From a bacterium (GTDB lineage Bacteria > Patescibacteriota > Minisyncoccia > Phycocordibacterales > Phycocordibacteraceae): a DNA stretch of 16,545 nucleotides. Positions within the stretch are counted from its first letter, which is position 1. Every line of letters begins with the position of its first letter. A model generated the notes under the pieces. The model had not been told where the DNA came from. It worked only from the letters and a program-made list of their open reading frames with translations, and did no database searches. Below, piece by piece: positions 10,634 to 11,407 of the stretch. Where the stretch lies: contig JAJZRH010000003.1 in assembly GCA_021802795.1 (NCBI GenBank), positions 1 through 16,545 of the forward strand. Direction: 5' to 3'. The position numbers and the translations under genes were made by a program.

Positions 10634-10730
10634 GTGCGCGGTGAGGGACTCGGTCACACATAAAATCCTGCTGGATTTTTGCGCGACCCCGCCTCGGGCC
10701 GACGCCCTCCGGCTTTCGAGCCCGTTACCG
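10634..10730. repeat. tRNA-Val end-copy element (antisense and sense copies)
   Basis: Positions 10634-10652 repeat the tRNA-Val 3' end (10779-10797) in the same orientation with 18 of 19 identical. Positions 10715-10730 carry an inverted copy of the segment 10785-10800 with 14 of 16 identical. The two copies can pair with each other, closing a region that holds the hairpin aaaatcc-tgct-ggatttt (10662-10679) and GC-rich stems. Read in the direction of tRNA-Val transcription the order is tRNA end, terminator hairpin, antisense copy, sense copy. No coding frame is credible here. Confidence 0.65.
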
Positions 10731-10737
10731 GCCAAAA

Positions 10738-10774
10738 AGCGAAAAGCCAGACGGAATCCGTCTGGCTTTTCGCT
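10738..10774 (-). terminator. Palindromic terminator of the tRNA-Ser/tRNA-Val transcript
   Basis: A perfect 18+1+18 palindrome centred on 10756 begins 5 bases after the tRNA-Val 3' end. On the minus strand the stem is followed by TTTTT, as expected for an intrinsic terminator. Confidence 0.8.
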
Positions 10775-10779
10775 TCCTG

Positions 10780-10852
10780 TGCGCGGTAAGGGACTCGAAC
10801 CCCTGACCCTCTCAACGTCAATGAGATGCTCTACCAACTGAGCTAACCGCGC
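10780..10852 (-). tRNA. tRNA-Val (anticodon GAC)
   Basis: A 73-base cloverleaf on the minus strand. The acceptor GCGCGGT pairs with ACCGCGC and the discriminator is A. The D arm is GCTC-AGTTGGTA-GAGC. The anticodon stem TCTCA/TGAGA holds the loop TTGACGT with anticodon GAC. The T loop is GGTTCGAGTCC. CCA is not encoded (CAG follows). It is the second tRNA of a tRNA-Ser/tRNA-Val transcript, 24 bases after tRNA-Ser. Confidence 0.95.
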
Positions 10853-10876
10853 TTGTTTGGGACTATACCATTCTTG

Positions 10877-10963
10877 CGGAGAGGGTGGGATTCGAACCCA
10901 CGGTACCCTTTCGAGCACACTTGATTTCGAGTCAAGCGCTTTCGACCACTCAGCCACCTCTCC
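10877..10963 (-). tRNA. tRNA-Ser (anticodon CGA)
   Basis: An 87-base class II tRNA with a long variable arm on the minus strand. The acceptor GGAGAGG pairs with CCTCTCC and the discriminator is G. The anticodon stem CTTGA/TCAAG holds the loop CTCGAAA with anticodon CGA, reading UCG codons. The variable arm is built on GTGCTCGAAAGGGTACC and the T loop is GGTTCGAATCC. CCA is not encoded. Its promoter lies about 140 bases upstream, with the end-copy element in between. Confidence 0.95.
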
Positions 10964-10968
10964 GTTTA

Positions 10969-11096
10969 CGGTCGAGGTGGCTGGGGTCGAACGAGTTCGT
11001 CCTCCTCGCGCCTGTCGCTCCGCGACATCGGCGCGTGCCTTTCGGCACCGGATGAAAAGCGAGCAGTCGCTTTTCATCCACTCAGCCACCTCTCCG
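10969..11096. repeat. tRNA-Ser end-copy element in the tRNA leader
   Basis: Positions 11078-11096 repeat the first 19 bases or so of tRNA-Ser in the same orientation. Positions 10969-10995 carry an inverted copy of the same tRNA 5' part, with GAGGTGGCTG exact and then GTCGAA. The copies close a 10-base-pair stem (10974-10983 with 11083-11092) around four hairpins: a perfect 12-base-pair stem (11051-11078, loop gcag), GTGCC-TTTC-GGCAC (11035-11048), a bulged 12-base-pair stem (11007-11035) and CGAAC-GA-GTTCG (10988-10999). A promoter lies directly upstream, so the element is predicted to be transcribed as the leader of tRNA-Ser. Its 5' end mimics a tRNA gene, but no full cloverleaf can be folded. 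Confidence 0.65.
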
Positions 11097-11105
11097 TGTC
11101 CCGCG

Positions 11106-11114
11106 ATTCTAGCA
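11106..11114 (-). promoter_or_regulatory. Promoter of the tRNA-Ser/tRNA-Val transcript
   Basis: Minus-strand TGcTAGAAT is a perfect extended -10, with a candidate -35 TTACCA (11129-11134) 17 bases upstream. Initiation near 11099 falls about 3 bases before the sense copy of the tRNA-Ser 5' end. Confidence 0.65.
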
Positions 11115-11128
11115 TTTTAGAGCGAAAA

Positions 11129-11137
11129 TGGTAAGGT
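11129..11137 (+). promoter_or_regulatory. Promoter of tRNA-Glu
   Basis: TGgTAAGGT ends 8 bases before the tRNA-Glu 5' end, so the primary transcript would start at or within two bases of the mature end. It faces away from the tRNA-Ser promoter, and the two control regions overlap. Confidence 0.5.
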
Positions 11138-11145
11138 TTCAGTAC

Positions 11146-11217
11146 GGCCTCATCGTCTAACGGCTAGGACAGCGCCCTTTCACGGCGTAAATCGGGGTTC
11201 GATTCCCCGTGAGGTCA
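11146..11217 (+). tRNA. tRNA-Glu (anticodon UUC)
   Basis: A 72-base cloverleaf. The acceptor GGCCTCA pairs with TGAGGTC (one G-T pair) and the discriminator is A. The anticodon stem GCGCC/GGCGT holds the loop CTTTCAC with anticodon TTC. The T arm is CGGGG-TTCGATT-CCCCG. CCA is not encoded (CAG follows). Confidence 0.95.
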
Positions 11218-11220
11218 CAG

Positions 11221-11258
11221 CGCACCGCATTGAGCCGCCTTTGTGGCGGCTTTGTGCG
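11221..11258 (+). terminator. Hairpin directly after tRNA-Glu, possible terminator
   Basis: An inner stem AGCCGCC/GGCGGCT (11233-11239 with 11245-11251) and an outer stem CGCAC/GTGCG form a hairpin starting 4 bases after the tRNA. The T-run after it is poor. It occupies the same place as the terminator after tRNA-Val, between the tRNA end and the antisense copy. Confidence 0.5.
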
Positions 11259-11260
11259 TT

Positions 11261-11407
11261 GTGACCTCAAGCAAAGCCTGGGAGGCTTTGCGTCGGGGAA
11301 TCGAAGACCTTGTGAGCATTTTATGGAACGGAGTGAACAGAAAATCCGCAAGGTGTACTGACCCTGTAAGGGTCGATACGCGTAATCGCGGTCCCCGTGA
11401 GGTCACA
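11261..11407. repeat. tRNA-Glu end-copy element (antisense and sense copies)
   Basis: Positions 11392-11407 repeat the tRNA-Glu 3' end (11204-11219) exactly over 16 bases. Positions 11261-11269 and 11294-11305 together form an inverted copy of the tRNA 3' end plus T loop (GTGACCTCA, then CGGGGAATCGAA). They are split by a 24-base insert holding a perfect hairpin, GCAAAGCCT-GGG-AGGCTTTGC. Further stems are ACCTTG/CAAGGT (11307-11312 with 11349-11354), ATTTT/AAAAT inside it, and GACCCT-GTA-AGGGTC (11360-11374). No credible coding frame. Confidence 0.65.

Follow-up and report, generated by a model that had tools for sequence, protein, structure and literature searches.

Three neighbouring transfer RNA (tRNA) genes of contig JAJZRH010000003.1 (assembly GCA_021802795.1, a draft genome of 477 kb in 65 contigs) are each accompanied by a hairpin-rich element that holds an antisense and then a sense copy of the end of that same tRNA. 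The stretch analysed, hereafter the window, comprises positions 1 to 16,545 of the contig (16,545 nucleotides). We propose, with moderate confidence, that such elements are non-coding mobile elements of Paceibacteria, which insert at fixed points in conserved genes and restore the gene they enter, the supplied gene end forming the arm of a hairpin. More tentatively, they may form a class of mobile element of their own: a structured single strand, devoid of genes, that takes or copies the end of its target, uses the inverted copy as an arm and can in this way colonise almost any tRNA, transfer-messenger RNA (tmRNA) or ribosomal-protein gene harmlessly. The proposal draws on direct observations: the anatomy of the elements, their recurrence, their strand-specific structure, empty sites in relatives and a near-synonymous replacement of gene ends in a few genomes.

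Copies of tRNA ends in the window

The original prediction, made from the letters of the window alone, had described one order, tRNA end, antisense copy, sense copy, at the Val, Ser and Glu genes, and this order was found at all three. In what follows, S1 is the tRNA end, A the antisense copy and S2 the second sense copy, which lies beyond the hairpins. The features are as follows.

10779..10852, minus strand: tRNA-Val(gac); S1 is its 3' end, 10779-10797
10732..10778, minus strand: Val spacer hairpin separating S1 from the antisense arm, with a terminator-like stem (from sequence and fold)
10715..10730, minus strand: Val antisense arm (A), a better fit to S1 than to S2
10652..10716, minus strand: Val two-hairpin core, type 1, conserved (covariance model match with E 3.1e-20, the model including this copy; covariation)
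10634..10652, minus strand: Val S2, second sense copy of the tRNA-Val end, beginning at C56 of the T loop
10876..10963, minus strand: tRNA-Ser(cga); S1 is its 5' end, 10946-10963
10974..10991, plus strand: Ser antisense arm
10992..11077, plus strand: Ser hairpin region, type 3, 80% identical to that of a Ser element at the same tRNA in another locus (L225)
11078..11095, minus strand: Ser S2, second copy of the tRNA-Ser 5' end, running straight into the native flank
11146..11218, plus strand: tRNA-Glu(ttc); S1 is 11198-11218
11219..11260, plus strand: Glu first spacer hairpin (from the fold)
11261..11305, plus strand: Glu antisense arm, in two blocks (11261-11269 and 11294-11305) around a hairpin
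11304..11391, plus strand: Glu core, type 2 (GTACTGA..TGTAAG..TCGA), also present in relatives G027 and G020 and at other loci
11392..11407, plus strand: Glu S2, second sense copy of the tRNA-Glu end, with a detached TCGAT at 11373-11377

The Val copies were as long as had been claimed (18/19 identical bases in the sense copy, 14/16 in the antisense copy), whereas the sense copies of Ser (18/18, or 11072-11095 with 2 mismatches when extended) and Glu (15/15, 11392-11406) proved slightly shorter than predicted. The Ser antisense copy showed 18 matches with two 1-nt gaps, and both blocks of the Glu antisense copy were perfect and flanked a 24-nt hairpin, while the additional TCGAT of the second Glu copy was detached by a 14-nt hairpin. 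The Val antisense arm extended 2 nt past the start of S2, and the Ser element was situated on the 5' side of its tRNA. The distance from S1 to S2 ranged from 132 to 188 bp and was occupied by hairpins only, with no integrase gene inside.

When each flank was subjected to 2,000 dinucleotide shuffles, the sense score was reached by none at any of the three sites, and the antisense score by just 6, 2 and 3 shuffles. Moreover, among the 33 distinct tRNAs of the genome, the adjacent tRNA scored highest on its own flank in both orientations, bearing out the claimed specificity, with the narrowest margin in the Ser sense copy (19 versus 18 for the best other tRNA). Folding of S1 together with the element and S2 gave structures far more stable than shuffled sequences (z of -8.5 for Glu, -7.7 for Ser and -11.0 for Val). 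The three sets of hairpins were apparently all different. The original prediction had set these sites apart from an ordinary transposon or repeat, which has the same ends everywhere; the ends do differ from site to site, but the Val core turned out to be common to many sites. An assembly error at this cluster is unlikely, because the same layout was found again in many independent assemblies.

A structured core shared by many genes and genomes

Scanning the tRNA genes of the window's own genome revealed clear sense copies also 3' of tRNA-Val(tac) and tRNA-Asp(gtc), and a weaker downstream one at tRNA-Ser(gct), where another tRNA scored slightly higher; among these three, an antisense copy was prominent at Asp only. 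Their elements and the Val(gac) element of the window had one core in common. This type-1 core of 65 nt consists of a helix P1 with conserved GGAG, GACG and CGAG, followed by a helix P2 with an AGCA loop, and ends with GTGAC. A covariance model built from these four copies (R1) gave 11 strong matches in the same genome and, in total, matches in 70 of 98 genomes (own genome included) and 31 of 41 genera, with a maximum of 53 copies in one genome. The search of the remaining genome and of relatives suggested by the original prediction thus brought up both further tRNA genes with copies and a widespread core. An exact scan of genome contigs for the core pattern returned at least 117 stretches, and 79 of the 80 records listed were titled as Patescibacteria groups or carried no group name. 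The only other title among those 80 belonged to a 5-kb contig binned as Ignavibacteria with a core at its end (L181), which is possibly misbinned. Viral contigs contained no exact core-pattern match, and the Val element found no match in phages or plasmids. A comparison with Rfam yielded nothing for the window at gathering score, nor anything for the cores when E values up to 1 were admitted (8 loci, 5 with cores); likewise, intron covariance models matched nothing on the window at gathering score and nothing at E up to 1 on 8 loci. At one locus of the own genome (L039, G000:C62:1824-2228), two facing cores lie 275 bases apart directly behind an open reading frame whose translation resembles, as we judge it, an OLD-family nuclease.

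In an alignment of 106 core copies (102 distinct), 97.8% of the cells were paired, a percentage biased upward because the alignment was fitted to the model. Two-sided changes were seen in 18 of the 21 core pairs, and this signal was lost when partners were slid. G-U cells outnumbered A-C cells by 54:7 when the conserved G-U pair and the last column were left out (154:7 with all), and this excess indicates that the fold is kept on the gene-sense strand. The maintained form is therefore RNA or gene-sense single-stranded DNA and not a double-stranded cruciform.

Genomic context was examined in 170 distinct cores, a non-random set combining best-scoring matches, matches listed in a pattern scan and matches from core-rich genomes. 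It derived from 177 rows (40 of 42 loci of model matches, plus 46 of 59 and 91 of 106 matches) less 7 duplicates, the rows left out being weaker, secondary or cut-off matches. A tRNA on the same strand ended within 300 nt upstream in 81 of the 170, and one on the opposite strand in a single case, while random positions in the same loci had an upstream same-strand tRNA in 48 of 4,000. S2 beat all tRNAs of other isotypes in 53 of the 81 tRNA-linked cores. At a score of 11 or more, a copy was found in 47 of 80 tRNA-linked cores, spanning 15 isotypes, and began at C56 in 30 of these 47, some of the other start positions arising from the simple T-loop finder. A test blind to tRNAs, in which an upstream direct copy of the downstream sequence was sought, gave a copy better than all of about 50 foreign sequences in 53 of 168 cores, and 47 of 168 beat every foreign sequence at a score of at least 12. 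Cores were present at tmRNA genes as well (L170 and L222). For 10 of 69 cores, the nearest counterpart in another genome was located beside the same tRNA (permuted mean 3%), which points to some inheritance by site but mostly to similar cores beside different tRNAs.

The junctions had a regular form. In most type-1 sites read, the base following the terminal GTGAC of the core already belonged to the gene copy (C at tRNAs, A at rplL), and at the sites inspected the antisense arm went one or two bases deeper into X, the part of the gene preceding the insertion point, than the start of S2, an offset that may reflect a staggered reaction. Where S1 and S2 differed (n = 16), A fitted S1 better in 8 cases, S2 in 1 and both equally in 7 (p 0.04). 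Tandem pairs of elements at one site, resembling arrays, were observed at a tmRNA gene (L170) and at rplL (L190, the second element truncated).

Empty sites, second gene ends and broken tRNAs

Occupancy of the corresponding sites in relatives was judged by eye. The closest relative (G027, rlmB protein 96% identical) has no element at tRNA-Ser or tRNA-Val, and the Glu element is present in both genomes. Of the 22 relatives whose rlmB region contains tRNA-Val(gac), only two showed something similar: an inverted copy followed by a truncated core in G018, and other hairpins with a short antisense copy in G020. The Glu element adjoins its tRNA in 2 of the 8 relatives shown, with a detached one in the G033 locus, and the Ser element was found in none of the 5 relatives with enough flank. 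In the window, the Ser S2 continues into the native flank as in G027, and S1 runs into element sequence. The entire Val-Ser-Glu tRNA block (10779-11407) is inverted relative to the corresponding G027 locus (L276), and the Val element lies near one of the breakpoints.

Cores also occur at the 3' end of rplL, where the coding sequence helps to tell which copy is native. Of 147 genomes searched, 134 had the gene; 110 ends from 109 genomes were read and, one being dropped for its short flank, 109 genes from 108 genomes (one genome twice) were analysed. An antisense copy of the rplL end with a score of at least 13 was found in 11 of the 109 and in none of 2,300 shuffles (14 of 109 at a score of at least 11, versus a shuffle rate of 0.8%). 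A second rplL coding end (4 of 5 residues plus stop) occurred in 5 of 109, and in no shuffles. The plain DNA test for a sense copy was weaker than this peptide test (score of at least 11 in 7 of 109, shuffle rate 1.0%). At one locus (L337), the two ends read GCC GGA GGA AAA GTA ACT TTT AAG TAA and GCT GGT GGA AAA GTT ACG TTC AAG TAG, with six differences between S1 and S2, all of them synonymous; at another (L326), all four differences were synonymous, and at both loci the aligned codons outside the search window likewise differed only synonymously. Synonymous changes made up 17 of the 21 codon differences in the 8 pairs listed, and three of the four others fell in the opening codon of the compared stretch, beside the junction. 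The antisense arm at L337 fitted the upstream end, and that at L326 agreed with S1 at three of the differing sites. These sequences are most simply read as two ends that still coded at the time of their divergence: the native end, now displaced downstream, and an upstream one that arrived with the element. On account of this near-synonymous divergence, S2 is read as the displaced native end and S1-A-core as the inserted unit.

The layout is more general than a single core, since several core types were distinguished: type 1 (Val), type 2 (Glu), type 3 (Ser) and two more at rplL, of which one is in the rplL of the own genome. At L309, L352 and L409 (own genome included), the antisense rplL copy is succeeded by a further conserved hairpin type, which contains ATAGGCAGATGTAG. 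In the same position, L322, L337 and L347 carry a hairpin type with GGTCGG.., GGAGAGCAG.. and GAGAACCGAGGG, which at L322 is followed by a type-2-like core.

Not all cores were associated with genes. In G073 and G083, 22 of 23 and 9 of 17 cores, respectively, had no same-strand tRNA within 300 nt upstream, and many gene-distant cores start with a small unrelated hairpin of their own where a gene end would otherwise stand. In G073, three contigs with differing surroundings each carry a copy of 246-254 bp, and these three copies are 98-99% identical. Other cores were found, by eye, inside broken tRNA-like sequences; at five loci (L225, L180, L176, L116 and L220) an intact tRNA stood immediately behind the interrupted copy, and 21 of the 170 cores had a same-strand tRNA within 150 nt downstream. 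Gene-distant cores, near-identical copies and broken tRNAs favour mobility and disfavour a dedicated tRNA switch.

Proposed mode of insertion, alternatives and known systems

According to the mechanism we envisage, a non-coding element of about 110-250 bp would insert at a fixed point X|Y of a conserved gene, mostly in a tRNA T loop immediately 5' of C56, and also in tmRNA genes and at the end of rplL. The product would be X-[Y1-hp-A-core]-Y2, in which the inserted unit comprises a carried gene end (Y1), a spacer hairpin (hp), A and the structured core, and the native end (Y2) is displaced downstream. Y1 and its reverse complement A would form the first hairpin of the element and, as Y1 completes the gene, insertion would be harmless. 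Movement would proceed in trans via a folded single strand of the gene sense, either RNA or DNA, and at the junction the core and A might have a role comparable to that of the folded attC site. The element might gain a different gene end when the arm of its first hairpin is synthesised anew on the target, through snap-back synthesis or quasi-palindrome correction. At two loci (L309 and L126), S1 and A form a perfect or nearly perfect palindrome with a loop of 0-2 nt, which suggests that the arm arose by snap-back copying.

It should be considered that a number of results weigh against this proposal. The antisense arm was the best match to its own tRNA in just 27 of the 81 tRNA-linked cores, a weak signal, and in the tRNA-blind comparison with S2 it stood out in only 23 of 168 (median 5.0 versus 4.5). 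No direct copy scoring 12 or more was found in 121 of the 168 cores, and at least one of the about 50 foreign sequences also reached 12 in 27 of the 168. Of 52 direct copies, 36 were identical along the aligned stretch and are thus uninformative as to which end is carried and which is native. In the window, the type-1 core is missing from the Ser and Glu elements. At rplL, 3 of the 8 pairs had been chosen for carrying a core, and the peptide search, by demanding 4 of 5 residues plus stop, introduces a bias toward synonymous pairs; the second ends of L191 (3 of 5 residues), L188 and L352 were too altered to count, and the arm at L326 agreed with S2 at one differing site. The empty sites could have another origin, loss between direct repeats. 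Finally, each of the candidate mobilising genes (Y1 transposase, reverse transcriptase, tyrosine recombinase and HNH endonuclease) was undetected in some high-copy genomes.

The explanation that comes next, although unlikely, dispenses with a mobile unit: repeated template switching at gene ends would yield an inverted and then a direct copy, the hairpins being by-products. Copies that match the local gene would be expected from it, and S1-A palindromes with tiny loops, as at L309 and L126, are typical of snap-back synthesis. However, one and the same core, with 18 of 21 pairs covarying, recurs between copies at dozens of genes and also away from them, and the near-synonymous S1/S2 differences at rplL are equally hard to reconcile with template switching.

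We attach little probability to a cis-acting RNA switch, in which the transcript would pick between tRNA folding and antisense pairing with the sense copy competing, and this idea, favoured by the original prediction, was not supported. The predicted folds do sequester the tRNA end (z of -7.7 to -11.0 versus shuffles), the gene-sense strand is the one on which the fold is maintained, and cores linked to a tRNA share its strand (81 versus 1). Nevertheless, the presence of the element differs among close relatives, the same cores occur away from tRNAs with an unrelated arm hairpin, and rplL, which encodes a protein, has a similar layout at its end, as does tmRNA. As a whole, the earlier interpretation was partly supported: its alternative, a mobile element building its ends from the target, fits best with the empty sites, with a shared core flanked by gene-specific copies and with the occurrences at rplL and tmRNA.

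It also seems improbable that the elements encode a guide RNA (a 5' guide plus scaffold, as in the omega RNA of IscB) steering a nuclease to the gene end for homing. A guide-like arm does stand immediately 5' of a conserved scaffold, the insertion point falls about 2 nt within the arm, the fold is strand-specific, and a gene for an HNH endonuclease (PF01844) was found upstream of tRNA-Leu(taa) and a core at three loci (L194, 1618-2226; L198, ~4518-4721; L224, ~1112-1303). Yet the arm fits S1, so that the element's own chromosome would be cut, HNH relatives were detected in just 28 of the 98 genomes and in neither of the two core-richest ones (G073 and G083), and no Rfam match was obtained. Least probable by far is an intron-like element spliced out of the transcript so as to join X to Y2, for although some copies split a tRNA-like sequence and bring no end with them (L225, L116 and L220, by eye), the tRNA is already completed by S1, Rfam provided no intron match and an intact tRNA adjoins the five interrupted copies.

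Returning to mobile elements acting in trans, the neighbourhood of the cores was inspected for genes that might move them. The 25 protein clusters listed were, by eye, housekeeping genes or overlapping frames, with the exception of one, the HNH endonuclease. Y1 transposase was detected in 52 of 70 genomes with cores versus 11 of 28 without (Fisher p 0.002; Spearman 0.28, p 0.005), and was undetected in 9 of the 35 genomes with at least 4 cores; when the own genome's RAYT (REP-associated tyrosine transposase, REP being repetitive extragenic palindrome) was used as query, 10 of these 35 gave no match. Y1 transposase is thus a possible partner that is not needed everywhere. Reverse transcriptase was present in 41 of 98 genomes and undetected in G083 (48 cores), and tyrosine recombinase of any subtype in 89 of 98, with one in the own genome, and undetected in G075 (21 cores). 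The two Y1 (RAYT-like) transposase genes of the own genome (L062 and L063; G000:C24 and C40) are surrounded by hairpins of their own (GGGACCTACGAGGTCCC; ACATAGGACTGTCCTATGT), which by eye are of another kind, unrelated to the cores, and their contigs gave no core match.

Of the known systems, integron attC cassettes share with these elements the sense start at the left junction, the antisense arm, the hairpins and the sense sequence at the right junction, as well as a folded single strand with unpaired bases and the occurrence of tandem units (here L170 and L190). Unlike in attC cassettes, the arms are up to about 20 nt long and come from the host gene, there is no conserved R box and no gene cassette, and the target is a gene end, not attI. 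The end boxes of attC follow the inverse-core/core-site consensus RYYYAAC/GTTRRRY; no such boxes were seen at the element ends, where GTGAC is in most cases joined directly to Y, whose sequence depends on the gene. Insertion in the T arm, restoration of the gene by a carried 3' end and a resulting direct repeat also characterise the integrative elements and prophages of tRNA or tmRNA genes. A direct repeat restoring the gene end was likewise found here, at tRNAs and rplL, but about 110-250 bp leave no room for an integrase or cargo, and the inverted copy of the gene end constitutes an arm of the element. The element may work in part as integron cassettes or tRNA-integrating elements do, yet it lacks features of both that were tested for (it has no gene and no conserved boxes). 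Small dispersed non-coding hairpins in many copies, often beside genes, also recall REPs, bacterial interspersed mosaic elements and miniature inverted-repeat transposable elements, from which the multi-hairpin core and the copies varying with the target gene set the present elements apart. REPs associated with RAYT are described as GTAG- or CGTC-tagged palindromes (PMC3733652). Such a tag is unpaired and stands at the foot of one palindrome; the core has its conserved GGAG, GACG and CGAG, which sit within helix P1. The own Y1 transposase genes are flanked by those other hairpins and not by the core. With the omega RNAs of IscB and TnpB the elements share a structured scaffold beside a sequence matching the insertion site, but the arm here is an inverted copy that fits the restored end. 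Nothing like these elements was found among open-licence papers, although they may be described in others.

If the proposal holds, widespread gene-free elements rewrite the ends of essential genes in reduced genomes, providing a natural case of target-copying insertion and a new structured nucleic acid family, and accounting for the odd tRNA flanks and broken tRNA copies of the group. For annotation, displaced tRNA ends, broken tRNAs and a second rplL end should then be regarded as insertion footprints and not as functional genes. Some further interrupted tRNAs were noticed in the own genome. A complete tRNA-Gln(ttg) (L030, G000:C45, ~1501-1572), flanked by an 11-13-nt inverted repeat, and a complete tRNA-Ile(tat) (L004, G000:C60, ~1501-1577) each lie between the apparent halves of another tRNA of the same kind, and 3' of tRNA-Gly(ccc) (L011, G000:C35, 386-457) there is a degenerate second tRNA-Gly with a hairpin inserted at the anticodon loop.

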